A DNA stretch of 64,000 nucleotides from Hericium rajendrae (taxonomy: Eukaryota; Basidiomycota; Agaricomycetes; Russulales; Hericiaceae), in the NCBI GenBank assembly GCA_033439255.1, contig CM065882.1, positions 1,302,001 to 1,366,000 on the forward strand, in the 5' to 3' direction. Shown here piece after piece: positions 5,332 to 40,060 of the stretch. The stretch's first letter is position 1. Every line of letters begins with the position of its first letter. Under the pieces are notes generated by a model. The model was not told where the DNA came from. It did no database searches and saw only the letters and a list, made by a program, of their open reading frames with translations. A program made the position numbers and the translations under genes.

Positions 5332-5614
5332 CATCAGGAAACCTGGAATGTTCTGATTATTGTCTGATTTAGTCTGATTTAGTCTGATTTAGTCTGATTT
5401 TGCCTGATTCCAGATGATCAGACAGAAGTTAGGTAGGTCCCTATCGTCCAGGTGCTTGTCAGACAAGTCTGATATCAGACTGAAGTCTGAATCTATCTGA
5501 ATTTTATATAAAAATAACCTATATAAAATTTCATCCATATGTAGGTTAGAGGTCTAGACATATCAGACAAGAGTTAGACAGTCAAAAAGTCAGACATTTC
5601 CCCTTTTCCTGATG
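5332..5614. mobile_element. 283-bp CATCAGGAA-ended miniature element in copia
   Basis: The left end CATCAGGAAACC and the right end GTTTTCCTGATG-like sequence (CCTTTTCCTGATG) are inverted. Four tandem TCTGATTTAG units follow the left end, and more TCAGAC motifs lie near the right. The flanking dinucleotides do not match, and copia coding does not resume on the far side, so a deletion or rearrangement followed insertion. Confidence 0.55.
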
Positions 5615-6062
5615 CATCTGTGTCCATGTGCGCTTATAGTACTTGTAAGGTATGAGATGCACAGTTGTACAGGTGCTCCTGGGTGGATTGACTACCTCCC
5701 TCAGGATTGGGACACCAAAACTATTCCCACTTAAGGGCAATAGCCAACCGTTCACATCCCTTATAGCATCACGCCGGCTTCCCGACGCTTGCCTACTACA
5801 GTAGAGGGTGAAGCAAGAACACGAGCCTTGACAGAGCCTCATGTATCGTACGTATAGTAAGCGCACAGAGGGAGCACAGACAGGTGGACTCACACTGACT
5901 TCTAGCATCGCCATGCTTCCGTCGTCAATGCTCGTGTAACCCCGAAGGGCGAGAGCACGATGGCAGTTCATTGAAGAACTCCAAGTGGGGCGCGAGTTGA
6001 GAAAGGTGACTCACCTTGGTAAAACAGCAAAGGTAACTTCTTGTGTAGCAGGTGTTCAGGCA
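5615..6062 (-). other. Copia leader region without a recognisable gag
   Basis: This stretch lies between the tRNA primer site and the interrupted pol region of the minus-strand copia. A gag gene and a protease are expected here, but I see no zinc knuckle and no DSG motif. A 129-codon open frame (5582-5971) runs through it but has no recognisable domain. The gag part has probably been deleted. Confidence 0.35.
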
Positions 6063-6074
6063 GGGCCCATAACC
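6063..6074 (-). promoter_or_regulatory. Copia primer-binding site (initiator tRNA-Met anticodon arm)
   Basis: On the minus strand this reads GGTTATGGGCCC, complementary to the anticodon stem-loop of initiator tRNA-Met. Copia-type elements are known to use an internal half-tRNA primer of this kind. The same 12-mer occurs at 47956-47967 in the other copia. Confidence 0.7.
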
Positions 6075-6431
6075 TGAAGAAACATGACTTAGAGAGACAT
6101 TAGTCTATACTCAGTCTGTGATGTGAAAGACTATATTGCAGTACCTTAGAGAGACATTAGTCTATACTACAAGTAGAGTCAGTAAGGATGAAACTCATAA
6201 GTAATGCAAGATATGCTCACCTCAGTCTGTGATGTGAAAGACTGAGGTATCTGAGTGAACGAGAGAGCCCTTATATAGTACTGAGGGCTCTGCATATCTA
6301 CCAATCAGAAATTGTACAGTAATCGTACAGCATAGCATAATGGATTGCTCATCGCATGGGAACAGCATCAGTCAGCTCACTAAGGTATCAGTAAGCATAT
6401 GTCAGAGCGTATTACTAACCTATACAGTAAG
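6075..6431 (-). repeat. Probable 5' LTR of the minus-strand copia
   Basis: This sequence lies directly outside the primer site and ends there in CA (minus strand), with a TGTATAGG start near 6431. A TATA-like box, ACTATATAAGGGC, sits near 6270. A 26-bp segment about TTAGAGAGACATTAGTC is repeated at 6088 and 6146. No 3' LTR is in the window, so the outer boundary is a guess. Confidence 0.5.
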
Positions 6432-17128: not shown

Positions 17129-17290
17129 TTACGATTCCTTAGAATCGTTTACTCTATACCGGCTTTTCCTATCGAAAACGACACCAAAACGATGACCATC
17201 CCCATTTGGCAGTTGGCTTATGTAATTGCAAGATCATCAATCTGACGAGTTTGCAGGTTCAATTCCAGCTCTGGCCTGACTTTTTCTTTT
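17129..17290 (+). mobile_element. tRNA-related SINE-like element, copy 2
   Basis: Same structure as the copy at 9078: a TTACGATTCCTTAGAATCG start, a B box GGTTCAATTCC at 17256-17266, and a T-rich end. It lies 150 bp after the F-box-like gene. Confidence 0.6.
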
Positions 17291-17929: not shown

Positions 17930-20900
17930 CTATTTGTGACGAGTCTTCTTGGATGGCTGACTTGAATCCTGATCTCCCATCTTTCTCTTTTCTAGCTCTT
18001 CTTCTGCTATGCCCCCACCTATAGTCTCCCAAACTGCCAACGATGATTCAAAGTGAGTTTCCACCCAGCGAGGACTCTCATAGTCATCCGCCTTCTTCCA
18101 TACAGGTCTTGATTCATCTCCAACATAAGGCTGTAGGCTTTCAGGAAGGTCAGCATCTTTATCCAACCACCACTCATCCATTTCCTCTTGAATATTCAGC
18201 TTCTTGCTCCAGAACTTGTTCAGATCAGAGCAGAGAGAGGTGTACAGATCAGAAGAGGACCTTCTTGGGCCAATAGCTTGAAGAAGATCTGGCCTGATCT
18301 CAATCTGCTCACTATAGTGGATCCAAGCTTGAGCAACATCTCTGCTGATGCTAGTAAAAAATTTCAGAGGATAGGCCCACTCCTCCTGACAACCTTCACT
18401 GAGGTAGTGCTTCATCATCTTTGTCAAAGCCAGTCCATTGATAATTTTGTGAGCTTGAGCTGTAGCATCAGGTCGAGGCACAAGATTCTTGACAGCTGAT
18501 AAGGTTGGTGCAAAGATGACAGCATGTGCAGCTGCCAAAAAGATGTGCATCCCTTGAACTGTGTTGATGTCTGGGTATTGAGCTACAATATAATTAGACA
18601 GAATATTAAAGATAAATGTAAAATATGACTCACCACCAGAAGAGGGATGATCTAAAAGATAAGCCCACCAAGCCATAAAATCAGCTAGTATAGGACGGAC
18701 AGATGGATGAGATGTGTTATTGTGAATGGTTCCCAGCATCTGAGAATGAATCTGTCCAAAAAAGCTACGATCCAAGCAGGCTTGGGCATAGAAATGCCGA
18801 CCATAAACCATGGTTGCCTCAATTCCATACACCCAGTGTCGAGTGCAAGGCCGTTGATAGCTAAATGAATGTCAAAAGTCAGAATTGAAAAGCAAAAGAA
18901 CAATTATTTTTACTTACAGAGTCTGGCCTGGCTGCAAGAGAATAGCTTCTACATAGTACTCATTGAGATCTAAATTAGAAAAGTCATGGATGTCCAGATA
19001 GGTGTTCAAGTTGCTGATATCGTCCTTCCATGGATCTTTGGGTGTAAGCAGAATCCAGAGCTTGCTACCAACCAAAGGCTTTGAAGCTGTAGCTAGACCA
19101 TCTGTATCCTCATGGAAGTCTGAAATAGACCCTTTAGTTGCTACAGTGGCCCAGGACAAATCAGTCGTTGGCCTATCATGCAGATGAGTCTGCAAAATAG
19201 CCTCAGAGTGCCTCAAGACAAGTTCATGACTGGCTAGAGAGCTGAGTATTCCTTAGTTAGTATAATTAGAAAACAGATGTAAATTATAATCATACCTAAA
19301 GTTGGGCATTTCTGCCAAAGGTTCTGGGCAAGCATTATCTAACCCATTCAAGATCTTGCCATCATACAAGGTGCACAGATCTTCTGAAAGCAGTTCTGGA
19401 TCCATGCCTGCTAGAAGAATGTCACGGCGTGTGCCCTTTCTCAACTGCGCCTGTGCATTGTCTGCAGACCTATAAGCCATATCTGCCATATAAACATTTA
19501 TTAGTTTCTGTCCTATGATATAAATATAATCTTACCTTGAATTTCAACAATTTCATCCAGATCACCCAATCTTCCCATAGACTCTTCATTCCAACTCCAT
19601 CTTCTGGAACTAGACTGACTATGCACCAAGATATGCCTGCGAGAGAAGATGCTTTGAATGATAGTGGTGTCTAGATCTGCAAAACTGTCACAGGAGGTAA
19701 CATAGACTGCTGAGCTAGTGTCTCTGTCAGGATGTTCCTGTTGTTTGGCAGACTTGTTACACATGCGTGGCTGTCCATCTGGCTGTAGGCTGGCGAATAG
19801 AGCAGTTTTTAGCTTGTTGCCTAAAGTAACCTGAAAGTCGTCCTATTGAATACTAAGTGTTAGTGGTAAAAACAAAATAAAGCTTGTAGTCACTCACCTC
19901 ATTCTCCATAATAAGAGGTATATAAGGAACATTGACCATATCATCTCTTTTTGCACAGTATGCAGGAAGCATGATAGGCTCAGAATTTAGCTAATTTAAA
20001 CAAAGCAAGTCAGTAATAAAGCTCTGAATAATATAGCATGCATACCTTAGCAGGTTTCTTATCTAATGCAGGCAGTTTCTAATATATGATTAGAATTGTT
20101 ATATGCAAACAAAAATAGTAGGATCAGAAGCTTACTGGTATGTTAGCCAGCTCATAATGCAGTGTATTGATCTTGTTTTTAAGAGCCTGAATGATTTTGT
20201 TGTCTGGAACACTACCTTGTTTTCTGTCTTGCATGTTTCTGATAAACCTGTTAGGATCCACCCTGATCTCAATCTCTTCCTGTGTCTGCTCCTCTGGCTG
20301 CTCTGCTATTTTGTCTTGTTGTTTCTTCTGCAGCTCTTTCTCCTTCTCCTCCTTCTCTTTTTCCTCCTTCTCCTTTTTCTCTTTCTCCTCCTTCTCCTTC
20401 TTTTCCTTCTCCTTCTTCTCCTTCTCCTTCTCTTTCTTCTCCTTCTGCTCCTTTTCCTTCTTCTCCTTCTCCTTTTTTCTCTCCTTCTCCTTAACTTTCC
20501 TTTGCTTTTCCTCCTGCTCTGAATCCTCCTCTTCTGAATCCTCCTCTGAATCCTCTGACTCTGACTCTACCTCAACTAATTTCTTCACCACTTTCTTCTG
20601 CCTTGGAGACTTTGATTTTTTAGCTAAAAGATAATTATATTAGATTATTGGATTGAATACATAGCAAATTAAGACTTACCTGGATTGCTTTTCCAAACTG
20701 CCACAAGACCTTGTACAATTGCATTTGGATCTACCTTACTGAAATCTAAGCCAGCCATGACCTCAGCAATAGTAGTTCTAAAGTCATCTGGCAGACTATG
20801 AACTAATTTTTCTGTCTTTGCATTCAGCACTATATCTTGGGAAAGGTGTTCTTCAGCTTCATCAGAAGATGTTGGCTCATCCTGCTGTTCTGCTCGTCCT

Positions 20901-22620
20901 AAAAAGAGTATTAGATCAGCAAAAATCAAAGATCATATTGTAAACTCTAACCATATTTGGGCTCCTGAAACCAGGTGGCCTCATCTGCTATATCTTCAGT
21001 TTTAGAAAAATGGGTTTTCCAAAATTGCAACAGTTCTGGCACATGCACATTGGCAGGTGCACCACGTGCAATAGCAAACAAAGCAATCCAGATCATTCTC
21101 TCAAATTTGACCAGATGTGGAGGCCGCTGCACATTTCCCAGAAGAATCATGACCTAGAATATATATATGTTTGATATCAACAGAGAAAATAATATTACTA
21201 AATAGAACATACCTGTAGATATGCAGATCGACTGAAGGCCTCTATATGCAATGATCGTCCCAGAAATAGCACAATAGGAGAGAAAGATAGGCAAAGTAGA
21301 ATGGGTGATAGCCATTTAGAACGTTTAGGCTTGTCCATGTTTTTAATTTTATCATCTGATAGGTCGGCATCTCTATAACAAGACTGATATTAAAAACAAA
21401 TGGTTCATTAAGTCTAGATAATATGACTTACATAAATATGTTTTGCCAGAATATATCATCTTCAATGATGAAGATATATGCCTACAAATACATTATTAAA
21501 TTTGTAGTAAGGTATAAGAAATTGAGCTCTATTACCTTCATAAAAGCCTGCAGGCCAGCAGCTGCTATCTCAAAATGCTGAATGATACGAAAGGATAAGT
21601 TGGCCTGTTCCTTCTTCATCACACCCTCCAAGAGAGCACTTGTGATCTGAGCTGCAACCTCATCATTCCATATTCCTGATGACCAATGATTTTCAAGGAC
21701 TTTCATAGTTGCAGATGTGATACTGTCACTTGATGTGGTGGCCACTGTTCCATCAGAGAGTGCTAGCTTGTTGGGAGTATGAAATGCATCATATGCCTTG
21801 TCAATGACAGTTGGCCAAGACTTTAGATCATCCACCACCTTAGACACATCAGATTATTAAGCAAAAAAAAAAAGAATAATAGCTCATACTGATTTCAAAA
21901 GACTAGTCTTTTGCACAAGCTGCTTGTATGCAGCAATCTGAGGCATATGCAAGTGCTTCTGGCCTCGAGCAGGAGTCATATCGTGAATCTTGCAGATGAC
22001 ATCGACAATCTGGTATCGTGCGATCACATTTGTGACCAGAGTCAGATGACCAGAATAGAGGTTCAGAACCGCATTGAAGATCTCTTTGCGTTCCTGCTCA
22101 TTGTTTAGATTTTTACCACCTTCAACCATAAGCCTCCAGAGATTGGCTTTTTCTGGAGGTGGCAAGTCATAGAACCCTTCTTTGCCCCAAGAATCCATGT
22201 GTGTGAGAAAGGTCTGCATGACATTTAATCACAGCATCACAAATAGAATGAAGAGTATAGCATTACCTCATAGACAGTAGACAACCGGTCTTCAGCATCC
22301 TGATCTGCTAGTACCAACATTTTCATGGCCTCTCTGTCTGGTGCATGTGCACGCCTTCCCTGCAACAAGGTTCGGATTGTGGAGACAGTCATGATATCCC
22401 CATTGAACCAGGGTAGGGTGTGGAGCAGCTTTGCCTCTACTCTGAAGTCTGCCTTCTTCTCTTGTGCCTTATCTACAGTCACTACGGCTGGATGGATGGT
22501 GGCTTTACTGAACTCCTTAGAAGGTATGAAACTGGCAAGGGATGACTTGAATGAGATATCAGATCAGAAATGGACTCAGGGGTCATACCTGATATCAGGC
22601 TGTGCTGGCTTAGGAGGCAT
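17930..22620 (-). CDS. JmjC-domain (2OG-Fe oxygenase) protein, 15 exons, 1305 aa
   Basis: My model starts at the ATG at 22620 (MPPKPAQPDI) and ends at TAG 17930. Exons: 22620-22589, 22531-22267, 22213-21890, 21838-21536, 21481-21432, 21372-21213, 21153-20952, 20898-20680, 20623-20136, 20078-20046, 19990-19898, 19842-19536, 19482-19296, 19241-18918, 18860-17930. All phases close. The JmjC core lies near residues 910-1040: SISDFHEDTDG gives the HxD pair (H931, D933), GSKLWILL follows, then ILLQPGQTL, and TRHWVYG gives the distal histidine (H1004), then VYGRHFYAQACLDRSFFG. This matches the large agaricomycete JmjC-like family. Residues about 535-650 form an acidic then Lys/Glu coiled stretch. 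The N-terminal 500 residues are unrecognised. JmjC enzymes usually demethylate or hydroxylate lysines; the substrate here is unknown. It diverges from the TET/JBP-like gene. Confidence 0.75.
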
Positions 22621-22810
22621 GATTAGATGAAGATTGGAGAGTCTACAGAAGGTCAGATGCACCATCAACATAGAGCAAAAGAGAGTGAGAGCCTACCTTG
22701 TCTGTAGCAAAGATGACAGCAAAGAGCAAGAGAGATGTGGCAGCAATGAGGCCGGGTGGCTGAAAGTGAACATGATCACATGACATCTTTGATCATGTGC
22801 GACAGCGAGC

Positions 22811-22872
22811 CCGACCGTCCTCGCTGTCGCACGTGATCCCTCACCGTCCTCGCTGTCGCACGTGATCCCTCA
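22811..22872. repeat. Tandem 28-bp duplication
   Basis: Two adjacent copies of a segment containing CGTCCTCGCTGTCGCACGTG lie in the upstream region of the JmjC gene, about 200 bp before its ATG. Confidence 0.7.
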
Positions 22873-22959
22873 GGATTGCGAGACAAAAAAAAAAAGAAAC
22901 AAATTTTATTCGAAGTCCCTAATATACAATACAGTGGTATGCTACCTAGCGTGATAAGA

Positions 22960-23760
22960 CGGAAATGTGCAGACTCGAAATCGAGACCAAACTGTCACGA
23001 TTTCGAGCTGCAGGACATGTGGGGCATACCCACACCATGCAGCAGAAGTCTGACCCAAAATCACGATCAAACGGTCGCAATTTTGGGCCAGCACGACGTG
23101 TGGGTGTACCCACACGTCCCGGATGCGAACCCTCTCGTACAGGGCTAGAAACGTCACCGAACGGTGACGTTTCCAGTCCTGCACCATGCAGAACAGGTCC
23201 GGGTCGTATAGACCCAAAATTGCGACCAAACGGCCGCAATTTTGGGTCCGTACGACGTGTGGGTGCTACCCACACGTCCCGGACACGAAGAGTCTCGTAC
23301 AGGGCTAGAAACGTCACCGAACGGTGACGTTTCGAGCCCTGCACCATGGAGGACAAGTCCGGGTCGTATAGACCCAAAATTGCGACCAAATGGTCGCAAT
23401 TTTGAGTCCATACGACGTGTGGGTGCTACCCACACGTCCCGGACACGAAGCATCTCGTACAGGGCTAGAAACGTCACCGAACGGTGACGTTTCGAGCCCT
23501 GCACATGGAGGACAAGTCCGGGTCGTATAGACCCAAAATTGCGACCAAACGGCTGCAATTTTGGGTCCGTACGACGTGTGGGTGCTACCCACACGTCCCG
23601 GACACGAAACGCATCGTGTAGAGCCAGAAACGTCACCGAACGGTGACGATTCTGGCCCTGCACGGCATGCGGGAGTTACCCGCACGCTGCACAAGAAGAA
23701 CGGGTCGTACAGACCCAAAATCGCGACCAAACGGTCGCGATTCCGGGCCTGTACAATGCA
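22960..23760. repeat. Hairpin-rich tandem array, about 160-bp unit, five units
   Basis: Unit markers GACCCAAAAT lie at 23053, 23211, 23371, 23530 and 23712. Each unit holds up to three inverted repeats: AAAATTGCGACC/GGTCGCAATTTT, GTGTGGGT/ACCCACAC, and GAAACGTCACC/GGTGACGTTTC. A half unit based on CTCGAAATCGAGACC begins near 22975. Compensating differences are visible between units, for example TCGCGACC paired with GGTCGCGA in the last unit. The array is GC-rich compared with its surroundings and lies between two divergent genes. Several short frames through it are by-products. Confidence 0.8.
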
Positions 23761-24001
23761 GAAAGATTACATACCTTATTCAGCTAGCGAAACGCTGGCT
23801 GCAACTGCCCGGGGCAGTGCTGGAAGCCCTGGCGCCGGAAGTGAGGCCGTTGGGCCGGAAGTGAGCGCGGTTGTGCCATTCCGAGGTCGTTGGACCTGAA
23901 TGAGGCCATTGGGCCCTGCGCGCGAGCCTCGGGGGGCAATGGAGGAGGTCGGAGGAGTGGGGAGAGGGATGTGGTAATGTTGCAGGGGATGGGCTTCAAA
24001 C

Positions 24002-24038
24002 GAGCACCAACTCGCTCGAAACGAGCGAGTTAGTGCTC
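24002..24038. other. 37-bp hairpin
   Basis: Arms GAGCACxAACTCGCTCG and the inverse flank a three-base AAA loop. It lies 200 bp from the array, between the divergent genes. Confidence 0.7.
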
Positions 24039-24216
24039 ATCATTAGTTAAAAGATTGAGATAAGAAAGTTTATTACTCACCTGCGTGGTCTGCAAAGCCT
24101 CCCAACATTCCACCCTGCCCCAACTACACGAGAAGAATGCGAGAAGAATGAGTACTTACCAGAGAAAGAGCAAGAGAGAGGACTTGCGCTGGAAATCACG
24201 ATCGGGCCTTACGTAA

Positions 24217-24300
24217 TCCGCAGCACGGGCGAAATGACGTACTGCCGTCCCCCTGGTGATGTCATGGGACGGGAGTACGTCATTTCGCCCGTGCTGCGGA
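24217..24300. other. 84-bp inverted repeat between the divergent genes
   Basis: Arms of about 35 bp, beginning TCCGCAGCACGGGCGAAATG on the left and returning on the right, are separated by about 15 bases (CCTGGTGATGTCAT). It contains TACGTCA/TGACGTA boxes that resemble bZIP/CREB-type sites. 24301-24943 is otherwise AT-rich upstream sequence with no clear gene. Confidence 0.7.
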
Positions 24301-24943
24301 TGCTGCGGGCGCTTAGTGGGCGCTTGCTGCCAGGCTCCTTACTTCTTCCCGTCATCTCGACAACAGTGCTCAAATCTCGTCTTCTTCGTGGTTTTCTTTA
24401 GCGGTGAGTCTAATTATTCTTATAATCTTTGTATAGATGTATAAAATGGCTAAAATAAATCATAACACCTACTATCTTTAGCAATCCGAGTGTGGATTGT
24501 CAATTCACCGGCATTTTGAGTACTTTTGGTATACTGTCGGAGCTGAGTGCTTCCTTTTAGCCGTTTATCTTGATAGTAAGCTATATTTTCCTTATATCAT
24601 ATGTATATGTATATGCTAATGTTATTATAGACAGAGGTCTCAATAGCAAAGAGTCGACCCCTAACATTGGTGGCATCTTTGGAGCTTTTTGTGGGGTTTG
24701 AGCAGTTCGGTCAGTTCGGTACGAGGTAGGTACTTCTTTTTAAGTGATTCTTTTTGGAGTGAATCTAATTGGTCTATCCATATGGGCCTAAAGCTAAAGA
24801 TAGAGCAATAAATAGCTACTTTTCAACAACAACAATAAAAATATTTCAATTTGACATTTTTAGTGCTTTTTTCTATAGTAAGTCAACTTCTCTCATATTG
24901 TTTGCAAGTACTAAGACTGATATAAATTATAATAAATATAGTT

Positions 24944-27900
24944 ATGGCTTCTCAAACTCTACCAAATGATCTAAAATCATTACAATTACATGGTCGGGAT
25001 TCTGAACTTCCTCCTATTGGCATACGGCCAGATCATCCTCTGCATGCAAAGAACTTTTTGAATAGCAATGATTCTTTGTACAATACATTCAAGGATGGTA
25101 CAACATATGTGTGCATAGTGGATACAAGTTCAGCAGGCAAGCAGAAAAATGCAGAGTATGCAGCTCGAGTTGGAGTACCTCGGGGTACCTTGAGAGAGAT
25201 GAAAGACAAATTTGGTGAGTGTTTTGCTAACATTTTTGGACAGCTACTAATAAAAATAATATTTGTCAGGCTTGATTCAGTTGAATTCTGGTGATATGGT
25301 GTTTGTACGATCACAACAAGATGGAGATGTGACAGGCAAGAAGGATCTTTTTCAGGGAACCATGATAGCAGGGTATGTTGTTTAAACTTTTTAGCTTGGT
25401 ATCACTATACTAATTCAAGAACTTTATGTGATAGAAAATTTTTCTCTTCAGAAAAAATGGAGCATTTGCAACAGGCATTGGAAAATGCTCTTGGAGAAGA
25501 GGAGGAGAGTACAGCATCAATGCCTGTTTGGGATTTGGATTCTAAAACATTATTGGGTGGTACTGCTTTTGAGCGTACTGGTATTCTGCCAGATAAATCA
25601 GGTAGAACATATCAGATTGGACCAACACATCAAAAGCCACCACATCTTTTTGCGCCTTCAAAAAATGGCAAGTTAGAGAAAGGTGGAGAGTTGACAGATG
25701 CACAGAAGATGTCTAAAGAACTATTGGATGTAGGTTTATAAGATCTTTCCAATATCAATTTGGCTAAAGCTGTATAGGCAACTACTGGCTTGTTTTCAGA
25801 GGGCTATAAATGCTTGCCAGGCATACAAAATTATGTTCAGTCTTTTGCAGACTTGCATCCTTTTCCCAAAATTGGATCGTCAGACAATTTTATGACCCAG
25901 GCCATGCAAGTAAATATCTCAAATGCCACTACTTCTGAAGCAGGTTAGTAAAATTGAAATGAATATAACAAAGATTCAAAATTAATATTTACATAGATGT
26001 GGATCTTGCATCTATCCTTGGTCATTATGGTGGCAAACATAAAGATGGATATGATGCCCTTGGAGCTTTTACTGCTATGGTTTCTCATTCCAAGCATCCT
26101 AAAAATGGATACGATCCTGGTCGCTTTCACTTGCTAGAGCTTGGTGTTTTCATCGTGCTAGAGGATACTTTGGCTTGTTATTTTTCAGGCTTGCTTATGC
26201 ATGGTGGTACTTCTCCAAAGGCTCCTTTAGGAACATCACCATCGGCCTTGAAGACTACAGTTCGCCTCAATGCTATTGGTTATCCAAATGATATCTTGTA
26301 TGATATGAAAGGCATCTTACCTTTGTGCGCTTGGTCCTCAAAATCATCAAAGGAAGGCTTTTTACCTTTAGGTCCTGAAGTTAGATATTAGTGAGTTCTA
26401 CTTGTAATATTAAAGCTATATATATTGATTTATCTTTGTAAATTTAGTCCAGAGGATAGAAGTGACACTACAGATAATCCCATCAATGCTGGCAAGGGTA
26501 GCTGGGCTAGAGATGGACACATCATCATGCAGCCTGACTCCTTACTTGATTTTATTGTACGACATCTTCTGTTGTTGTGTATTTTCATATGTGCACAGAT
26601 CTGACCCAAGCTTCAAGTTTGTTGTTCTTACTTGATTATTTTGTTGATTATTGATATTTCACTCTATAGGTTCAAATTGATGTTGACAAGTTTGTCTCTG
26701 CTTTTAGCATCAAATCAGCAGATTCAAATTCATCTCATCGATATGTTGCAAAAACTTGGGCTCTAGCACCTGGTCAAGTTGCAGTGCATATCGATAACAT
26801 TGATACTATTCCTATCACTGTGGTTCCATCCGCTACAAATGGCCAAGAAGTGGTAGAAGATCCAAGACATCCTGTCCTGAAAAGATGGAAAGAATGGTTA
26901 ATTCAAAACTACAATCTTATGCCCAGCAATCACAAGTCTTTCCCAAAGCTATTCATTGATCCAGATAATCCATTAGAGTCTCAAGTGTTAGGTGGTAGTT
27001 ATTTAGGAGGTGTGTTTACATTTTTTTGATATAAAAGAGATTCAACTAAATTATCTTTTATATAGGAAAGACAAAGGCCTATACAAGATCCAAGCCAGGT
27101 AGTAATTAACTTATGGTGCATTAGCTAAGACTAATTGCTCAACATTTTTCTTTGTAATAGCAAAACTACGCAAACCTAAGCACTTTTCTGTTGGCAGTTT
27201 GAAAACACGTTCCAACATAAACAAGAAAATACGATCTGTAGCAGATGCACTTATTTCTCCATACAAGGAAAAAACATCAGACAAAGGAAAGAAAAGGACC
27301 AGAGAAGATGACAATGAAGAAGGAATACGAAGAAGCAAGAGGTTGTGCCACAGGGTGAATTATGCATGTTAGTTTTCAACAATTACATATAACATATTTA
27401 TTATATACTGAGCATAGTATGAGATCAGATGAAGACCAAGATGAAGATGAAGAAATGAGAGATGCTTCAGATGAAGATCAGTGGCAAGATGAAGATGAAC
27501 AACATGATGATGAAGAACAGGAAAATGAAGATGAACAGGAAGAGGAGAACAGTGCTGATCAAGTACAAAAAAGCCTTGCAAATGTGGAGAAGACTCTATC
27601 TTGGAGCCAAGAGTGCTTTAAAGATATGCTTTCCTCAAAAGAATCTGATGATAGAGATGGTATTCTGCTTTCTTCTATCTTACGATAGAAAGATATGGAG
27701 ATTTTTTTTAGTTAACAATATGAGTCTAACATCAAGAGCAGAATACTTTTCAGTAGAATCACTCAAAAATGACTTGGAAGCACTCTCTACTCATAGAAAC
27801 TCCATTTCTGCATCCTCCTCTAGTTATGTTGTGGGGCCGTCTACACATATCAGCCTCAGCAACATGGCAACAGCTATTAAAAAATGCACTCCTGGATGTC

Positions 27901-29711
27901 TGGACCCTTTGCCTTCAGTTCAGAAAGGCCTACAAAACATTTCTGATCTTCTTCATAACATTGCACTTCAATCTCTAGACACTCGTTGCAATCAATTTAT
28001 AGTCATGATGTCTCATATGACAGCATGGCTATGGATTGATCATATTGCAAGCTACTATGCAGATCAAGTCTTGAATGTCCATGCTGAGGATGAAGAAAAC
28101 TGGATTGTGAAGCTTGGGCGAATATTGTTGGCTGCTGCTAATGCAACTAATTCATGCAATATCACTCTGACACCATCCCATTTTACTTCAAATCTTTCTA
28201 CTGTGCCCAGTGTTATCTGTCTCCCACCTTGTCGCAATGATCTCAGCTCTGTTGACTTTAGCCCTCGAAAACACTTTCTTCAGCAATCTTTACGAATGAC
28301 TTTAGGACAATGGTTAAATCCTGATCAAACTGTCTCTCCTCATGCTGTTGCTCAAGCAGTATTTGTACAGAATCTAGTCTCTATTGCAGGTATGTTTATA
28401 TATCAATAGTAATATTTTATAATATCTCATCATGATAAACAGGGATAGAGATTCTTTACTTGGAAAAGACTTTTGTTCTCTTCTGTGGATTTAGTCCAAT
28501 GGTGGCAAAGAAAAAGCTACGGCGCTCCGTATCTCAAGATGATTTACAACATTTTTCAACTTGGCTATCTCATCATGCTATTGTCATACCAGACACGGAG
28601 GAGCATAAACTCATGATGTCCATCAATGATGTTTGTGATCAATATTCTGGTTTCAACAAAGATGCTCGTAAACATATTGAGACCTTGCCAATTCCCTCTA
28701 CTGCTAGTCAGTCTGAAGAGAGACATTCCCCTTCACCACATCCTCCTCTATTTTCTCATCCTCCACTTGGCCACATAAAATGTCTAAAGTTTCTGCATGC
28801 AGCTATATTCTTCCTGGATAGATCTTCTTTGAAGAATGAGCTGTCATTTACAGGTGATCTAGAATCTGCACCTCCAGAACATCAGGCCCTCCTTACAAAA
28901 ATGGCTACACGACTTGACCATTATCTTCCCTTTCGTCAGCGTGCACCAAGTCTTGTGAGGATGAGAGAAGATGATACTCCTTTTTCGCCAACAAATGTTC
29001 ACTCTCAAGCTGGATTTTTCAGTGCTCTGATCTTCCGTGGCATCACTTATGGTTGCCAGTTTGTCTTGGATCAGAAGGCCATGTTTTCAGACCTAAAAGA
29101 CTGGTCAGCCTGTTATGACAGCCTTAAATCCAATAAATCCTCAAATTATTTCTGTAACACCACAGCTTATGGTTGTCCAACCCAGCGTAGTGTTGAACAT
29201 GCAGACAAATATTGGAGGGCAGCAAACATAGAATGGAAGAATTTGGTGGAAAGAACAGCACATTGCTCCTTTACAGCATTCTACAAGTGCATCAAAAACA
29301 AAAAGTCAAAAACAAATGAAGTCATGTTCTATGGCTTTGGACCGCTTGTGGCTTATCTTCTCACTGCAGACTATGCTTATACAGATGTCATTGATATGCC
29401 ATCAGAGTATGATATGGGTGAACTTATATCAGAGATCCAAGCAGGAGCACTGAAAGGCCTAGCAAAATTACAATTGATCCATCCTAAGGAGAAAAACAAG
29501 ATGGTCATCAAAGATGCATTTGTTTTGCTATTTCATTTTCTAGATGCACGGCTGACTATAGAAGAGAAAGAGAAGATGGTGTTTGATCCTATTATGCTGG
29601 AACATACTTTATGTAAAGTATCTCGACTGTGGAACTTTGGGTTAGAGCAGTTGGTAAGATGTCTTATATATTTATAAGTGATCAACTCTGATTTAATCTG
29701 TCTTATAGTAA
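24944..29711 (+). CDS. TET/JBP-like 2OG-Fe(II) oxygenase, 13 exons, 1347 aa
   Basis: Exons: 24944-25214, 25270-25372, 25435-25729, 25778-25943, 25997-26390, 26448-26556, 26670-27009, 27066-27098, 27161-27354, 27413-27659, 27712-28389, 28443-29653 and 29709-29711 (only the stop codon). Phases close throughout; the acceptor before 27413 is a weak GAG, so a split into two genes near 27370/27423 is possible. The oxygenase core is at residues 285-375: YGGKHKDGYDALGAF gives HxD (H293, D295), then DPGRFHLLELGVFIVL, FSGLLMHGGTSP gives the distal histidine (H347), and VRLNAIGYP may give the 2OG-binding arginine (R368). I recall this pattern from expanded basidiomycete families; TET/JBP enzymes oxidise 5-methylcytosine or thymine in DNA. 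After it come a basic nuclear-like stretch (RSKRLCHR), a strongly acidic run, and an unrecognised 600-residue C-terminal region. The TET/JBP name is inference. Confidence 0.6.
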
Positions 29712-29811
29712 CTTGTAACAGATGGACGGAATGAAATATTGAATAGGTATCACGCGTACAGACAATCCAAAAAAAATACTTCGCAACAAACAATATTAAT
29801 ATTGATCTACG

Positions 29812-30180
29812 CAGAACTTGGTGAAAGAGGGCCAATGCTGTGCATGGCAAAACGATTCCTTTTTTTTTTATCATCAATGAAGGTATATAAATTACCGTCA
29901 TGTATGGCCATGTACAGGTATACTGACATCTTGCATGCAGGCCTGTACCTCATGCCTTATACTTGGCATGTAGCATTGTGCTGGGGCCAGTGCCTCATGC
30001 ATGCCTGCTACACCTCATGCCAGCCCACTATCCTATGCTGGTCTACCACATCTCGATGTACCTTGTGGATGGGCCAGTAACAGCTTAGAGATGACTACAG
30101 CTGAATGTGAGCATGTCAGCCAGCACAACCATATACATGCATTGTGTATTGCTATGTGCACTGAGGTGTGTCACCTGCCT
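29812..30180 (+). repeat. Copy of the Helitron helicase 3' end and trailer
   Basis: From AGGGCCAATGCTGTGCATGG onward this matches the last codons and trailer of the helicase gene (46219-46290), including GTATATAAATTACC. After a gap it matches 46443-46712 (CCTTATACTTGGCATGTAGC and following). It begins about 100 bp after the stop of the TET/JBP-like gene. Confidence 0.8.
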
Positions 30181-30984
30181 ATACATTGTGCCTCATACCT
30201 CATACACAGACATACCGAGCCATGCATAGGCTTAGTGCCTTATGCATGCTCATCATGCTACACTACATTTTGTATACAAGCTACCATCCCATAGATGCTT
30301 ACTGTACTTCATGTACAGGCTCACAGCATCTTGACACTCTGCACATGCTTGCAGCACCCTGTGCATGGCCACCACACTCTGTTGATCTCCTGTACAAGCT
30401 AGTAGCAGCCCTACATATGGGCCTGCATGCCTTATGCTCACCCTCTATGCCTCATGCATGGCTCTCAATATCTCACACATCCTCACTGCGCATTGCATCT
30501 TATATATAGGCCCACTACAGCTTAACATTGGTAAGCATGGCCACTGGACCTCCTGCACAGCTATAACACTTATCATGCCTTGTGCATGAACCTAGTGCCT
30601 TATGCACATATGTACTTTTGTTGTGCCTTACCAGTGCACACATACTTGCACATAGCTCTACCTGTACATGATGTGTACCATTGTGCATGTGTGCACTGTT
30701 TGAACTTGTAATATACTTGATTGTACTAGTAGCTGTATGAAATATAATTGATTTTGGCTTTATATCTCTTGTACCTGATTGATCTGAGACAGTACTAATA
30801 GCAGAGATCATAGTAGGGACCATATAGATCAGAGCAAGTCTTTGAATTTATATGATTTGTACAACAACTACAGCTATCCTTCAGAAACATGTAGCACTAT
30901 ATAGTGTCCAACTACTGTTATGATAGCTATGATAGGCCTTATAGTCTTACATAGTTGAGAACTGTGGTGGCATAAATAGTGATA
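30181..30984. other. Low-complexity TGCATG-rich region, no gene
   Basis: Degenerate short repeats of GCATGC, CCTCATGC and TACAGG, without a supported gene. 30713-30795 is repeated at the end of the window (63918-64000). Confidence 0.5.
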
Positions 30985-31571
30985 GACCTTATAGTGCTAT
31001 GATAAAACATATAGATCAATACTGGGCTATATGAAATTTCAATTTTTCAGATGATACACACTACACCAACTCATATATGCACTCTTGGCTCACATTTTTT
31101 GACCTATGCATACTTTTGTTGATTAGCTTACACATGTATCAACTTATGAGCATCACAACAAACTTATGTATGCTTCTACTACCTCATACGTTTTCTGTTA
31201 GCCTGTGCACCTTCTATTAATTTGTATACATTGCTGCTAGTACCAAAGGCAGAATTTAATTTCTATATTTGGATTTTTTTTTCTGACTTTTACAAAAAAT
31301 AACATAAATCATACCAGTTTTTTTTAATAGAGCTTATATCTCTTCAATGTATAATCTAGTCAGTATTTTTCTATTTTACATGCATAAAATACTATAAAAA
31401 TTGAATTCTTACCTTCAAACCATATTTTGTATACTGGCAGAAATTAGTGACCAAATATGGCAACTACTTTCTGGTAAAATTGCCTGTCGATTAGCATGAA
31501 GGTTTAGAGTAACAAAAAACATATACAAATGTCTGAGAGCATCAATTGTGCAAACATCACTTTAAGTATAT

Positions 31572-33117
31572 TAGGGTTCAACACAAGTGCACTCGTGGGT
31601 GACCTAGATCTGAACTCGCAGGTATTCTATCTGTCCAAGGTGCTGACCTGGATCCATGCAGATTTGCACCACTGGGTGATCTGGAGCTGCAGGTCAGGTA
31701 TCTGTGACATCACAGGTCACTTGCAAGTCAGTTGGTCTTAAAGTTGTGTCTCACTTTTATGATGCCCTCCTCTTTGTTTCTTCATCTTAATCCTCCCCTT
31801 TTCACCCTATCTCCTCAATTCAATGGCAGGATGGGTGTTATGGAGATTTGAGAGGCTTCTAGGTGAGTCCAAAAGCCTTTTATTTCATTGTACTGTACTA
31901 ATCTCAGGAGTCTCACTCGATAACAGACAAGGCTCTCATTTTTCACTATTCTTCGACAGGTTTCATGATGTTTGATGGGTTTCATGACATCCCACCATTT
32001 TTTGACATCATCCACCATATTTTGTGTACCATCTGTGCTTCTCCCATCATCCTCATCAACAAATCAACCAGCCAACCAGCCCTCACCCATCTTCAACAAC
32101 CAGCACTCATGTGCACCAGAGATTTAATTCCCACTCACAACAGTAAGAGCATGCACAGTGCCAGTCTAGCGCTGCAACTGCAAGGCCCACAATGCCTGTC
32201 AGGTCTTGTTGCTACAGCATTGTTGCTACAACAGCAAGGCTTGACATCTTTTTGCTGATCATCCGAGCAGTGCCTAGCATGCCTCAACAATGCGCAGTTG
32301 TCTACAAACAGCTTTGCATATCCTTGCATGTCTGAGACAGTGTGCATCTACCAATACATGCCCTGCCAGCATACACATTTTTGACTGCATGCCCCCACCA
32401 TCCCATAGTCCATTGCTCAAACTACATGTGTGCATTCATGTCCATGGACATCACATATACCACTATGCATGCTGTCATATCATTCGTCTGACAGAAGCCC
32501 AATGTGAGGCAAGTTTTATATGCCATCAGTGCTATTCAACAATCAAAATGCACCCTCCCGGTCTCATTTTCAATTTCTATCCAAGTTGGTGATGTCATTT
32601 GTGTGTGCATGCCCACAGCTATGCCAGTACACCAGCACCCACATATGCTCCCCTTGCACATGTGCCAGCCCATGTGCACACACATACTCAAAGCTGCCCC
32701 ACCGGCATGCACATGCCCATGTCGATGCCACAAGTATGTCGCATGCAGCCTTTTGAATCCATGCCTTGCTTGTAGACTTTATACACTTCATGGGTATGAC
32801 AAGATATAGTGATAATGGGCATATGTGATTGGAGCTGTAAGTTAGTGTTGGCAGATGACATATAGTATGTAGTTAGTTAGGGATCATGACATATAGATTT
32901 GAACTTTGCAATATAATATGTTAACCAAAATAAAGTTTGGATAGCAGGTTACCCACAAGTCACTCACAGGTCAATGGGTTTGAGCACAACCTTGATCTGA
33001 ATTTGTACAGGTCTCAGCCACCAGGTGATCTGGATCTACAAGTTAGATACCTGCAGGCCAATTTTGTGGGTATACCCATGTTGACCTACAGGTGACTCTG
33101 ACTCGTGTCGAACCCTA
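31572..33117 (+). mobile_element. hAT-like non-autonomous element B, 1546 bp, 8-bp target duplication
   Basis: Ends TAGGGTTCAACACAAGTGCA and GACTCGTGTCGAACCCTA. The flanks are AAGTATAT (31564-31571) and AAGCATAT (33118-33125). The other copy of the host repeat, at 61930-61945, has a single AAGCATAT, the empty site. TAGGG ends and 8-bp duplications are typical of the hAT superfamily. A GTTGCTACAGCA motif inside is shared with elements A and C. No transposase. Confidence 0.9.
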
Positions 33118-34399
33118 AAGCATATAAAAAAACACTGTTTAATCTAATCTAATCATGAGTAGTTCAGCTCCTACCTCTGATAACTCTATATTTTCTGCTA
33201 TGTTATATATCTTAGTACCTTATTATATATATAATCTGGTATGTAATACAGTACACACTTGTCATATCTTATTATACTCAGCTCGATATATGATATACAC
33301 TATTATATATGCTTATATTATAAATACTTGTAATATCTACAATTATAATAGTAGTCTAGTTGTATGTCTAATCAAACAAGATTCAAGATTGAATATATGA
33401 TCAATGTCAAACATTGTATTGTTGAACAAAGCTAATGGCCAATCACGTGATCAATAGCAGACCTTGTTCGGCCGCACAAGGTCTGGTGGCTGTGCTTAGC
33501 TTATGTCAGCAGTAGTTGATGTTGCGCTCTCTGCTCTCTCTTCTTTTCTTCAGATAGCTTTGAAGTCAGTGTGACACTACCAGTAGTGCACACTAACTAC
33601 AAGGCTTGGACACGCCCAGTCCCCATCTGCAGCGAGTTGCGGCTGAGGTGTCCAATGATGGTGTGGGGCCATCACCAACTTTCTGCTGATGATGTGGCAT
33701 AGAGATCAGGCCATAGAGCTCTCAATACCACATCAATCAGAATGAGTTAAAGCTTGTTAGAATCAGATTTACAATAGCTCTAGAATAGTGCCACAAACAA
33801 CAAAATAGCATGACAAAATGCTGACGTATTGGACTATATGTCTATGATGATGTGGCAGACTGTTTGCTTTATAGCTCCGCTGATACTGCATCAATCATGA
33901 TGTATGAGGGCTTGTTGAACTCAGATTTACAATAGCTTTCTAACAATACAGTGTACAACATCATAGCACCATTGGTTGTTGAGATAGGAGACAATACTGT
34001 TTTGCTAATATAGCATATAAATTGAAGAATATCTCTGCTTACAGTGATCCGATTTTCGTATTCTAAATTGGGTTAGAAAGATGTAATCAAAGGTATATGA
34101 ACACAATTTACCGTTTGTCGATTGATTGCTTTGTTGCAGAGCTATAAAGCAATCACTGTATACAGTGTATTGGCTCTCTAACCGACTTATGCTTATGTAA
34201 GCGGGCGCTAAGACCTTGTTCGGCCGCACAAGGTCTTGTAAGATCACATGACCGAGTCTCAGGACCCACTGCTACCGATAAATTGCATTTTTTGCTCATT
34301 TTATCAATAAACAGTATGTACATTTGTTTGCTGTGTATCATTTTAGTGGCTGTATCTTTCTATAAGCAGTAAATTGTGTTAGAGACCAGCTTTCTGGTA

Positions 34400-34920
34400 T
34401 ATTTGGATGCATTTGAGAACAAGTGAATCGGTTGAGTACTGATTAAGTTAGCTGAAGTTCAAGCATTCTAGGGGAAAATGCAGAAACAATTTGCATTCTG
34501 CAAGTTTTGCACCGATCCTAACGCCTAAGGTACTGTCAGAAAGCTATCAATAAGTAGATTCTGATGCATTTTAGAACAAGTAAATTGGTTGAGAATTGGC
34601 CTAGTTAGCTAGGGTTCAAGCATTTTAGAAGAGGAAAAAAAGAAACACTTTGCATTCTGCAAGTTCTTAACCGATTTGGATGCATGAAGTATGGTAGCAA
34701 AGCTATAAGTGAGTAGATTTAGACGCATTTGAGAACGAGTAAATCGGTGAAGAATGGACTGAGTTAGCTCAAGTTCAAGTGTCATAGAGGGAAAATGTAG
34801 AAATTCATTGCATTCTATGAGTTCTGCACAGATCAGGATGCAAAAAATACTGTCAGAAAGCAATAAATGAGCAGATCCAGATGCATTTGAGAACAGGTGA
34901 ATTGGTTGAGAACTGATCAA
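34400..34920. repeat. Tandem array of about 157-bp units, four units
   Basis: GATGCATTTGAGAACAAGTG-like boxes recur near 34405, 34560, 34718 and 34877, each followed by a TTAGCT/CAAGTT box and CATTCTGCAAGTTTTGCACC. It is present in both copies of the host repeat. The order of boxes resembles the array at 1100-2030. Confidence 0.7.
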
Positions 34921-34939
34921 GTTACATTAAATCAACAAA

Positions 34940-35090
34940 GTTTGGCTAGAGCTGGAGTTGAACCTGCAAACTCGTTAGATTGAAGATATGTGATTATATA
35001 AGCCAACTGCCTAATGGGCATAGTCATCGTTTTGGTGTCGTTTTCACTATGAAAAGGCGGTATAGAGTAAACGATTCTAAGGAATCGTAA
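34940..35090 (-). mobile_element. tRNA-related SINE-like sequence, copy 3
   Basis: Minus-strand copy with the TTACGATTCC end at 35090 and the B box GGTTCAACTCC near 34950-34965. It forms the right end of the 2.55-kb repeat. Confidence 0.6.
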
Positions 35091-36331
35091 CTAGAATCTT
35101 GCATAAAGGTGTCCTCTAAGCCTTCTACGACCGTGCTCTTTGTCTTCTTCACCTCTCTTGACATAGCGTCAACTGAGACCACATATCCAATGCGCCTTTT
35201 CAATACCTTTGGAGGAGATGCCTTCTTCTGAAACTCAATAGAGTATGCTTGCATATCATAGGCCTAGTAACAATCTATCCATAAGTCTCATCTATACAAA
35301 GATACAAACAAATTTACCTCTTGCAATTGACGATCAAGAATAGCTACAGATCGCAACTTGCATGCCATCTGATACAACCCTTTTTTTCCAGACAGAGGTA
35401 CCGTAACAAAAGACACTTGCACCTGAACAATCTGACCAGGTCGAATGATGGCTGGATCAATAGTGATATAGTGATAATCAGAAGATCTAGAGGTTTTAAC
35501 ATTAGTAAAATACAACACAAGAGTCGGCATAGAGTTGACGTACGTGCTGTTCCACTTTCTTTCATAGTACTCAACCTTATTATCATCAAGATGAGCACCT
35601 GCAGTGGATGTGGCCAGTAGCAAGACACCTTGTGGATCCACGACATCCCCAAAGGGTACAGGACTTGAGCCGTTGACAAGTGAGAGAGGAGTGACGTAAC
35701 GGTTGGCAAAGCTAAGGCTTGCATGACTCTCAACTTGATCAGGAACCCATGGTCTGAGACCTTTCACCGAATAGATGCTATCTATGAGACGATGGATAGC
35801 TGCAACACCGGCAACTGATTGATCAAAGAGAGGAGATCCTATTCCTAGTAGGCGAACGCTCTGTTTCGTCCAAATGATCTTCGTAGGTAGACTGTCATAT
35901 GTTTTTAAGCAAAGAGAAAGACGACAAAAGCAGATAATAACACACCTGTTGCGATCCAAAATTGGTGGCAAGTCATAGTCTAACAAGACACCTTGTCCTT
36001 CCCAGACGGCTTCCTCCATCTCCGCATCAGGATCCGAGTTTCGCAACACAACCTTTGCAGATCCATCTACGGCTTTATGTGCGACATAGTTCTCTCTCAA
36101 GAACTTCATCTAACAAAGCTAGTTAGCTGAATTCTAACAATAGTAAGGTATGAATACGCACATCAGACATATTGCTGAGTTGAAGATGACGTGGTAACTG
36201 CTTTACAGCATCATCACTGATCTTTATAAGATGTGCTCCTACATATTCATGAGACAAACTATACAGAGACAAAACACCAATCACTTACGGCAATCTGGCT
36301 TGTCTAAAAACTCAATCAAAGGTATAGACAT
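35024..36331 (-). CDS. Unrecognised five-exon gene beside the Helitron, 365 codons, C-terminus altered by an insertion
   Basis: Exons 36331-36289, 36238-36162, 36109-35946, 35891-35318 and 35263-35024 join in phase with normal splice sites. The N-terminus is MSIPLIEFLDKPDC. The middle contains GQGVLLDYDLPPILDRN, DVVDPQGVLLLATSTAG and PAIIRPGQIVQVQVSFVTVP, then MACKLRSVAILDR. This beta-strand-like pattern recurs in agaricomycete hypothetical proteins of unknown function that I cannot name. The PGQIVQVQVSF...LRSVAIL portion could be an OB-like barrel, which is only a guess. The last exon runs into the tRNA-like end of the 2.55-kb repeat at 35090, so the final 22 or so codons are not original. 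It is divergent from the gene at 37691. Confidence 0.55.
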
Positions 36332-37690: not shown

Positions 37691-39872
37691 ATGAATACTC
37701 GGTCTCGCAGCAACAAGGACAAGGTCCTTGCTCTTCCTTCCACCCCTGTTCGTAAGCCCAAGATGACCGTTCAACCTTCGGCTCCCAAGGGACTCAGCCG
37801 AACATCATCTCTGGCTAGCTCACTAGGTTCTATGAACTCGTATGTCTTTATTTTGTGCAATTATATGATTGGGCTAATGCTGTTGACAGTAGGAAGAGAG
37901 CTTTGGAAGAGCCAGCGTTCGAGTCCAATGAAGAGTACACTTATCTTTTTGGGATTTTGTTTCATACTTTTCTGACCATTTTGTGCGTAGGCCAGAGTTG
38001 CAGACTCCATTGACTACACGTTTTAAACGGATGGCTAAAGCAGATCGGTGAGTTTTTTTATCTTTTACTGTTCAGATATGCATTAACATAAGAATAAGAG
38101 AGCCTCTCAGCTTACGCAAAACATCAGAAACGACTAACAATAATGGAACTGCTTCTGCCCCAAAGAAACAGAAGATGAACGAGAAGTACGTATATGTTTT
38201 TTTTTCATACATTTGCTTTCTTGATATTGTTGTCTTTGCAGAAAAGAGCGTACTTTGGTATCAGATGATGAGTACGTGATTTTATTGCATTCTTCACATG
38301 CATAGTCCAAGCTTGCTTAGCTTTATAATTGTACTTGGCAGTCCATTTTCGATTAAGGAGGTTAATCCTCAGAAGACGTATGTCGTACAGTTTTATCTGT
38401 AGAATGATTGCTGATTTGCCTACACATTATAGATCAAAGGATGTCTTTTTAGATGACGAAGCTGCTGACACTACAGATGCAATGGTTTCTGATGACGTGC
38501 AGAAGAGCACGGATGAAAACAAAGAGAATCAAGACAACATTGACTTGGACGTGATGGACAACAATCTGTATGTTATTGTCACATCTATCGGAATACTAAA
38601 TCATTCTTCTTTCAGAATTCCAGAGGGCTGCAATGTCACCATCGCTACGTTGATTGATCCCCTTATGACAATGTTTTACAAACAACTTCCACCTCTAAAG
38701 TACGCTTGATTTTTGTTGTAAGCTTTTCCAAATGACTTACAACTCTTTTTTCTTATAGCACGTCTACTAGTCTGATTGGTGGCAGTGTAGATGTCATGAC
38801 CTATGCAGTTAGTCGTCTGACAGATGATGCCTACGGTAACATTACACTCGAGTAAGTTTATTGTTCAACTCATTTCATCATACAATATATTAATAGGGTA
38901 TGTGCACAGCTATCTCCTTCAGATTATCACATTTCAGGAGAACCGATCTTTGAATTTGATGAATCCCTCTCGTGCAGATCCAAGTGACTTTGTTGCTATG
39001 CCTTTAGGCACCGGCCATGCTATTGCATTCAAGGACGGAAATAAAAGCACAGCCTTGTGTCTCACCGTTGGATTTGTTGTAGATTCTCATCTAGCCAATG
39101 CACGGGTGCTGGAAAGCAGTATGTTCTTTATTGTTATCATCTCTTGTATGCAATTTGACTATCTTATTTTAGATGGACGTCAGATCAAAGAGCTCTATGT
39201 CTCTCCCTTGAGCATAGAATGGGAAAGGGCTTTGGCATTCTACGGCCTGGTCTTTCAGAAGTCCAAGCTAAGCATATACTGCATGGACAATGCACTTCCT
39301 TTTTCAACTGCGATGAGTCCGGTTGCACCTTCTTCCTCCAAAAAGAAATCTCAGTCATCCGGCAAGTTTTGCCCATTATCTTTATCAACCTGAGATACTA
39401 AGTGGAACTATACATTAGGCTCCAAGGAGTTGGCCACTCCGTCTTCCAAGTCACGAGACAAGTGGTCCAATGTTAGCCCAGCTTCTCAGGCTACAGGGAC
39501 CGATGCCACATTCAAGATGGGGATCAAAGGAATGAGTAAGAGAGCCATTCCGGTGTCCTATGATGGTAAGTGCGTCTATCTTGTTGTTTTCATCAACTAA
39601 CTCCGTCTTTTTGTTATACAGTTCCAGTGTGGGACTGCACCGCACTTTACAAGCGTATTGGTGATGGAGGATCTGTTGACCGAGGAGATCCATCTCTTTT
39701 GTTCGGTAGAGCTCATACGCATTCTGAGGTCAAGGTGATTCAGGATGATTTGCATGCTGGAGATGTAGTTGCGATTATTCATACCACATCCCATTGGATG
39801 AAAGGCGATTTCTCCAACCTTAGTCTTAACATCCAGGGTGTCTACTTGCTTGCTCGCGAAAAGGAGGATTAA
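37691..39872 (+). CDS. Unrecognised multi-exon gene next to the Helitron, one apparent frameshift
   Basis: Starts MNTRSRSNKDKVLALPSTP at 37691 and stops at TAA 39872. Small exons are separated by introns of about 50-70 bp with GTATGT, GTACGT and GTGAGT donors. One intron (from about 39360) uses a GC donor, GCAAGT, and ends at ACATTAG near 39419. The N-terminal third is basic and low-complexity (SAPKKQKMNE), followed by an acidic stretch. The C-terminal part includes LCLTVGFVVDS, SIEWERALAFYGLVF and GDVVAIIHTTSHWMKGD then LSLNIQGVYLLA. The reading frame slips once near 38960-38975 (between FEFDES and PSRADPSDF); no splice choice I tried repairs it. The protein would be about 500 residues. It is divergent from the gene ending at 36331 and precedes the Rep-helicase by about 470 bp. 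The function is unknown. Confidence 0.5.
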
Positions 39873-40020: not shown

Positions 40021-40060
40021 CATAAACGAGGTAGAGATCCTTGCTTAGACCATCGCCTTA

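Follow-up and report, generated by a model that had tools for sequence, protein, structure and literature searches.

A divergent pair of large genes, one of them probably JmjC-like, within a ∼25-kb Helitron family of Hericium rajendrae

The 64,000-nucleotide stretch of Hericium rajendrae DNA analyzed here (contig CM065882.1, or C5, positions 1302001–1366000; hereafter the window) contains two large genes that diverge from each other, one on the minus strand (17930–22620) and one on the plus strand (24944–29711). They do not form an isolated pair; they sit inside a Helitron family of ∼25 kb in size. The family is of autonomous type and carries five genes, arranged in the order of JmjC-like (−), oxygenase-like (+), gene 3 (−), gene 4 (+) and RepHel (+). 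The pair is real, mobile and under selection. Its minus-strand protein is probably JmjC-like, the TET likeness of its plus-strand protein is tentative, and the most likely role of the pair is anti-silencing. The reading as a whole, in which a ∼25-kb Helitron carries a pair of oxygenase-type proteins with an anti-silencing role, is the one that we favor, with modest confidence. The genome that was searched for further copies is 46.77 Mb in size and consists of 19 contigs.

Structure and copies of the giant Helitron

The window copy of the element is interrupted and spans positions 17129–46218; its hairpin end is at 17129 and its right part is cut at 46218/46219 by another Helitron. As revealed by DNA comparison, the left junction at 17129 is sharp and common to five copies (window included), the flanks of which differ. 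Two more Helitron insertions disrupt the window copy. Homology of the window to other copies runs up to 29818, begins again at 35089 and goes on to 46218; because past 29818 the other copies have the sequence found in the window from 35091 on, the intervening 5.27 kb was assigned to the first insertion. This insertion (29817–35090, plus strand) is a Helitron with the same ends; it contains no open reading frame of 120 or more residues, it sits within gene 3, three codons short of the stop, and, with its ends set at CTTGG...GTAA, it has no target-site duplication. The second interruption, from 46219 on, consists of one or more Helitrons with the same ends (46219–63917, plus strand), with the 5′ motif at 46219 and the hairpin end at 63899–63917. 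Both ends of the giant element were located in the C12 copy, near 1203915 and (by motif) 1228936, giving a length of 25.0 kb; the non-hairpin end was located in this copy only. An initial annotation of the window had seen a Helitron tail next door to the gene pair, which was the right clue: the pair lies within the Helitron.

The element has CTTGGTGAAAGAGGGCCAATG... at one side and ...AACGATTCTAAGGAATCGTAA at the other. The latter contains the terminal hairpin ACGATTC-TAAG-GAATCGT (17129–17155, minus strand), which has a 7-bp stem and lies 2 nt off the terminus; the element ends with ...GTAA, and the DNA fold z-score is −3.2 for 17129–17188. A hairpin near one end is a hallmark of the Helitron superfamily. 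With up to two mismatches, the hairpin end has 300 matches in the genome, compared to 0 for the reversed control. Target-site duplications, which Helitrons do not produce, are absent in both of the two insertions that were compared with uninserted copies; these are insertions of elements with the same ends into giant-element copies, not of the 25-kb unit itself, and at one of them the boundary can be placed only to within a 4-bp microhomology (AACT). Canonical Helitron1 elements have 5′ TC and 3′ CTRR termini and insert between A and T. The ends described here, CTTGG... and ...GTAA, are different, so the element was filed under the Helitron superfamily without a subgroup. An A precedes the CTTGG end at all three junctions seen; the base following GTAA varies (T, C, A or G).

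The RepHel gene (40049–46218, plus strand) provides the third hallmark of Helitrons. It matches DUF6570 (8.6e-43), the HUH Rep domain Helitron_like_N (PF14214, 1.2e-31) and the PIF1 helicase (PF05970, 9.6e-27). Its C-terminal part is cut off in the window copy. Judging from these domains, RepHel would move the element by rolling-circle transposition. One feature of the gene does not fit: its reading direction points away from the element's hairpin end, the reverse of the arrangement usual for Helitrons.

The plus-strand gene is present at at least 15 places, window included, in a tblastn search of the whole genome, and the minus-strand gene is found near most of them; the counts are lower bounds, with the best 35 of 92 candidates scored for the plus-strand gene and the best 36 of 181 for the minus-strand gene. 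At 11 of the 15 places the minus-strand gene is divergent, with the two starts roughly 2.3–4 kb apart; these distances are partly estimated where first exons were unlisted, and one of the 11 places shows a single minus-strand gene exon. The other four places (C4, C7 and two on C12) deviate: the arrangement is disrupted, both genes lie on one strand or the minus-strand gene is missing. RepHel with at least 94% identity in the best stretch occurs at 10 places, again including the window. The proposal that the pair is a mobile module thus holds well, the module being multicopy and inside a Helitron. We also considered that the pair could be a domesticated host cassette, which regulates host chromatin to the advantage of the host. 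The confinement of the copies to few regions per contig would agree with it, but many near-identical copies retain intact hairpin ends, several have decayed and no single conserved host locus was seen; we regard domestication as very improbable.

A second Helitron family is present in the genome. Its RepHel is 86–90% identical in the best stretch (8 places), its gene 3 ∼70% (8 places) and its gene 4 ∼50%. A JmjC-like gene of 45–48% identity lies 23–36 kb from the gene 3 of this family, in the same relative orientation, at three of four places (C9, C12 and C5), and seems to belong to it. The fourth diverged JmjC-like copy (C5:1560979) has no gene 3 nearby and was assigned to no element.

To judge conservation, we calculated the ratio of nonsynonymous to synonymous substitution rates (dN/dS) by the Nei-Gojobori method. 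The copies of the minus-strand gene fall into an A type, that of the window, and a B type. Compared to four B-type copies (1055–1111 codons), the dN/dS of the window gene is 0.186–0.203 at a dS of 0.84–0.91. The plus-strand gene has a dN/dS of 0.256 with the copy at C12:1.21 and 0.235 with that on C14, at a dS of about 0.05. Both genes are conserved as genes beyond chance, given the values of 0.19–0.20 for the minus-strand gene and, in two of seven comparisons, 0.24–0.26 for the plus-strand gene. The remaining values are higher. They are 0.61–0.73, at a dS of 0.01–0.02, for the minus-strand gene with two A-type copies, 0.41 for the plus-strand gene with C5:1.08, and 0.66–0.70 with C3:1.52, C7 and two copies on C12, which hold stops within exons. 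Values of this size would be expected if copies are decaying or very young, and they give no evidence of function. Transposon genes usually show purifying selection between lineages and relaxed decay of single copies.

These data bear on a passenger explanation, in which the Helitron captured two host genes that have since been spread passively and do nothing for the element. Gene capture is a known habit of Helitrons, several copies have a dN/dS of 0.6–0.7, and the diverged copy at C5:1560979 belongs to no assigned element. Function-unknown genes are also carried by Pleurotus Helitrons, according to parts of PMC4289320. However, both genes are full length with introns, the minus-strand gene is under purifying selection across a dS of ∼0.9, the layout is divergent at 11 of 15 places, and the diverged JmjC-like gene keeps its distance and orientation to the second-family gene 3 at three of four places. 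No homologue of the plus-strand gene domain was listed outside the 15 places at E ≤ 10 (45 matches). We consider passengers improbable. The initial annotation had also spoken of a captured module; resident genes of the element fit better than a fresh capture, because the related family seems to have the JmjC-like gene nearby as well.

Gene 3 (35091–36331, minus strand) encodes about 327 residues, its last codons and stop (29807–29809) being located beyond the insertion; gene 4 (37691–39872, plus strand) contains 13 exons and encodes 505 residues. Both gene models close. Gene 3 has no Pfam match under 0.19 and gene 4 has no Pfam match. With the C12 copy, the dN/dS is 0.24 for gene 3 (154 codons), 0.195 for gene 4, and 0.27 and 0.11 for the N- and C-terminal parts of RepHel; with the near-identical C3 copy, the values are 0.23, 0.41, 0.81 and 0.24, respectively. 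The RepHel segment absent from the window copy (L072:668–1870, C12 copy) encodes ...CGQTWSCAYDTLF..., which by eye resembles a cysteine-peptidase-type C-terminal domain.

Several further observations concern the surroundings. Among the first 100 hairpin-end places listed (C1–C7), most cluster in one or a few densely populated regions on each contig, which may be pericentromeric; no TTAGGG arrays were detected in a search for telomere repeats. The GC content reaches 65% at 50001–52000, in repeat-rich DNA within the right-hand inserted element. Retrotransposon-like integrase or polyprotein fragments were recognized by eye at 3300–7979 (minus strand) and 53696–54640 (plus strand), giving a nested transposon landscape. 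A ∼580-bp sequence at 8209–8790 recurs in or beside several giant-element copies (L009, L012, L016 and L040); it matches in both orientations and is apparently another mobile repeat.

The JmjC-like and oxygenase-like proteins

The minus-strand gene contains 16 exons and encodes 1288 residues, including H931, D933, K948 and H1004. Its model is closed, with 15 GT..AG introns of 51–59 bp. The last intron, 51 bp in length (18583–18633), is open in the window copy; it was treated as an intron because the frame changes across this stretch in the B-type C12 copy. The initial annotation had a closed frame as well; its length of 1305 codons is 17 too many, which suggests that this intron had been kept. 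The plus-strand gene contains 13 exons and encodes 1346 residues, including H293, D295, H347 and R368; its model closes with 12 introns and a TAA stop at 29709–29711. Two large divergent genes with closing exon models are thereby confirmed, and H931/D933/H1004 and H293/D295/H347/R368 are found at exactly the numbers given before. The HxD...H pattern had been read as a sign of oxygenases. Alone, it is no more than chance: at least one occurrence is found in 88% of 2000 shuffles of the minus-strand protein and in 94% of 2000 shuffles of the plus-strand protein, so the pattern by itself is no evidence for either.

More specific likeness was found for the minus-strand protein. Aligned with one another, the A, B, C9 and C5 paralogs share invariant H, D, K and H residues. 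When the four-paralog profile was compared with 177,635 PDB sequences, the top match was Caenorhabditis elegans KDM7 (3n9l), at an E-value of only 0.14. The two proteins are in register at SDFHEDTDG/TDFHVDFGG, at a Lys located 17 positions beyond the first His, and at the second His, which precedes FGRH/FGGN. All 20 loci that match the stretch with HxD and K retain these residues, and all 20 that match the following stretch retain the second His, several of these loci being the same copy or the window itself. A composite JmjC pattern, drawn up after seeing the sequence, is present in three of the four paralogs and in 0 of 20,000 shuffles. By profile, one of the four paralogs matches Pfam JmjC (PF02373) at an E-value of 0.042, with the window protein unmatched and the curated cut-off not reached.

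For the plus-strand protein, the likeness is to TET proteins. Its HKD...GRFHLLELG...MHGG...R resembles HRD...GAFDLPDVG...RHGA...R of the TET proteins of the genome. A TET-derived pattern was found in 18 of 20,000 shuffles and, among the 194 open reading frames of at least 80 residues in the window, only in an exon of the plus-strand gene; this pattern is post hoc and a rewritten version, the first one having missed three of three true TET proteins. Four loci, three of them other copies, span H293–H347, and HxD and the second His are kept in all four. The HxE of PE-type TET/JBP proteins was not found: residues 293–295 are HKD in the window and in all four spanning loci. The genome itself has 38 Pfam Tet_JBP matches above cut-off, several of them in families of near-identical copies (such as L001–L008).

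A number of results count against the assignment of both proteins as oxygenases. Single-sequence Pfam and PDB searches of the minus- and plus-strand proteins, and an NCBIfam search with three pieces, returned nothing. Copies of the minus-strand gene are absent from the 10 matches at E ≤ 10 in a genome scan with PF02373, and an hhalign comparison of the minus-strand protein domain with eight JmjC stretches of the genome gave nothing significant, with shallow alignments. No copy of the plus-strand gene is among the 52 genome matches of Tet_JBP (PF12851) up to E = 10; its domain has a probability of 0.3% by hhalign, with shallow alignments, with three TET proteins of the genome, and the PDB and Pfam searches gave no TET or oxygenase match. 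R368 is lost in the C12 copies L032 and L033, which hold stops within exons. As separate results, hhalign found nothing significant between the domains of the plus- and minus-strand proteins, in shallow alignments, and IMG/VR, when scanned for the JmjC-like family, yielded no relative.

Both proteins could instead be structural or regulatory proteins of the element, serving replication or the control of RepHel, and owe their oxygenase likeness to chance motifs. The shuffles quoted above are in line with this, as is the plus-strand protein being without Pfam, NCBIfam, PDB or hhalign support. Chance, however, does not readily account for the minus-strand protein, whose 17-residue spacing from H to K, second H and flanks align with KDM7, ranked first among the PDB sequences; the rarity of both post hoc patterns in shuffles also argues against it. 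We consider this explanation rather unlikely. The JmjC-type assignment of the minus-strand gene stands with moderate support: the register with KDM7 speaks for it, the E-values and the hhalign result do not. From its sequence features, the protein is probably JmjC-like, and most likely an Fe(II)/2-oxoglutarate (2OG) oxygenase, or an inactive derivative of one, that would act on chromatin. The TET/JBP assignment of the plus-strand gene is not supported by the profile searches and retains a post hoc motif likeness. Its product is a candidate 2OG oxygenase, and its TET/JBP likeness is tentative, slightly short of an even chance.

The intergenic region and exchange between element lineages

The region between the two genes (22621–24943) is a predicted divergent promoter region. 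Its CpG observed/expected ratio is 1.04, compared to 0.19 and 0.25 in the two gene bodies, 0.18 in RepHel and 0.65 in genes 3 and 4. The same holds for B-type copies (parts of three), in which the ratio is 0.96–1.12 in the intergenic region and 0.21–0.29 in the gene body. The region contains a palindromic array (22980–23770; CpG observed/expected 1.22), in which 3.8 units of 160 bp occupy 23052–23663; the fold z-score is −26.7. Between the window and the B-type C12 copy, identity is 86.3% in the array, 75.6% in exons and 69.4% in introns. Being more alike between the A and B lineages than exons or introns, the array is either constrained or homogenized. A near-perfect palindrome of 94 bp follows at 24208–24301 (z-score −14.2 for 24203–24306), and recurs in L014, L043, L055, L056 and L072.

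Some 50 bp from the latter palindrome, at 24147–24157, lies a switch point between two element lineages. Compared to one copy on C12, the window is ∼86% identical leftward of this point and 99% identical rightward. The JmjC-like gene (dS ∼0.9) and the hairpin end are located on the left, whereas the plus-strand gene (dS ∼0.05) is located on the right. The two lineages have exchanged the JmjC half of the element within the shared promoter region.

Among copies, the frequency of CpG transitions is 4.6–13.6 times that of other C/G transitions, depending on the region; the excess is 5.7-fold in the array and 13.6-fold (15 of 189 sites) in the rest of the intergenic region; the counts come from overlapping loci and are not independent. 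Since the excess is found in every region, the copies are exposed to CpG decay, presumably through methylation. Together with the CpG depletion of the gene bodies, it suggests that the copies are methylated. In the array, the A and B lineages have retained CpG no better than GpC (50 of 76 versus 30 of 42). Protection of the CpG island in inserted copies was considered but not supported, CpG transitions being in excess in both the array and the intergenic rest, and this outcome is a further point that the anti-silencing reading has to bear. The CpG content of the island would need to be maintained in the active lineage. Around the best Tet_JBP matches of the genome, the CpG observed/expected ratio is 0.89 and 1.08 (the two best) and 0.72 (the third).

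Proposed role and comparison with known systems

In the anti-silencing reading that we favor, both genes of the pair would share a single promoter region, CpG-rich and palindromic. The JmjC-like protein, whether an Fe(II)/2OG oxygenase or a derivative without activity, would act on chromatin. By removing or countering repressive marks, the pair may allow the element to be expressed despite CpG methylation by the host. This reading is backed by parts of PMC12730594, in which TET genes carried by other fungal transposons are proposed to have such a role. A stronger version would be a two-layer eraser, in which an oxygenase of JmjC type aimed at histones and one of TET type aimed at DNA are co-expressed from the palindromic CpG island of a rolling-circle transposon, and in which erasers are swapped beside the island, so that anti-silencing cassettes are exchanged in an arms race with the host; we think this version doubtful. 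If both proteins are active, the transposon would attack silencing at both of its chromatin layers by means of a single cassette transcribed divergently, and the escape of fungal transposons from CpG methylation and heterochromatin would become directly testable.

TET-carrying fungal Helitrons are already published. As described in parts of Kojima 2025 (PMC12730594), TET/JBP genes occur in eleven transposon lineages of fungi, Helitron1 and Helitron2 among them, and escape from silencing was proposed; the TET-positive Helitron1 is from Puccinia graminis and of PU type, and the TET-positive Helitron2 is from Agaricus bisporus. Like the element described here, these Helitrons have an oxygenase-like gene beside RepHel, for which an anti-silencing role was proposed. 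The PE-type proteins of that work are also very distant from known TET proteins, as the plus-strand protein is; their hallmark is HxE, whereas the plus-strand protein, whose TET membership is unproven, has HxD. Different from the TET-positive Helitrons in those parts of the paper, the present element has a second, JmjC-like gene in divergent orientation, and the term JmjC occurs 0 times in the main text of that paper. Among the papers listed in searches of the open-licence literature, we found no earlier report of a Helitron with a JmjC-type gene.

The minus-strand protein shares HxD, the Lys at +17, the second His and the FG end, all in register, with the KDM2/KDM7 demethylases (C. elegans KDM7, 3n9l). 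It differs from them in that the match has an E-value of 0.14 only, Pfam identifies no reader domain, there is a long charged insert and the gene belongs to a transposon. Epe1 of fission yeast is encoded by a host gene (PMC7192584, in part), unlike the transposon-borne pair. A working analogy may be drawn to VANDAL and VANC of Arabidopsis, in which, according to parts of PMC5735166 and PMC10398659, an element-encoded protein counteracts silencing; VANDAL is a plant transposon, VANCs are sequence-specific anti-silencing proteins, and no homology is claimed.

Even if the enzymes are inactive, a five-gene Helitron of ∼25 kb, with selected full-length genes and cassette exchange, broadens the range of fungal Helitrons, which are given as 6–14 kb in parts of PMC6431247. 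The HELPO1 Helitrons of Pleurotus ostreatus carry one to four accessory genes in addition to RepHel (Castanera 2014, PMC4289320, in part). They are also basidiomycete Helitrons with accessory genes and RepHel; in contrast to the present family, their sizes reach 13.7 kb among the rows seen, and their accessory genes are described as retrotransposon/viral or function-unknown.

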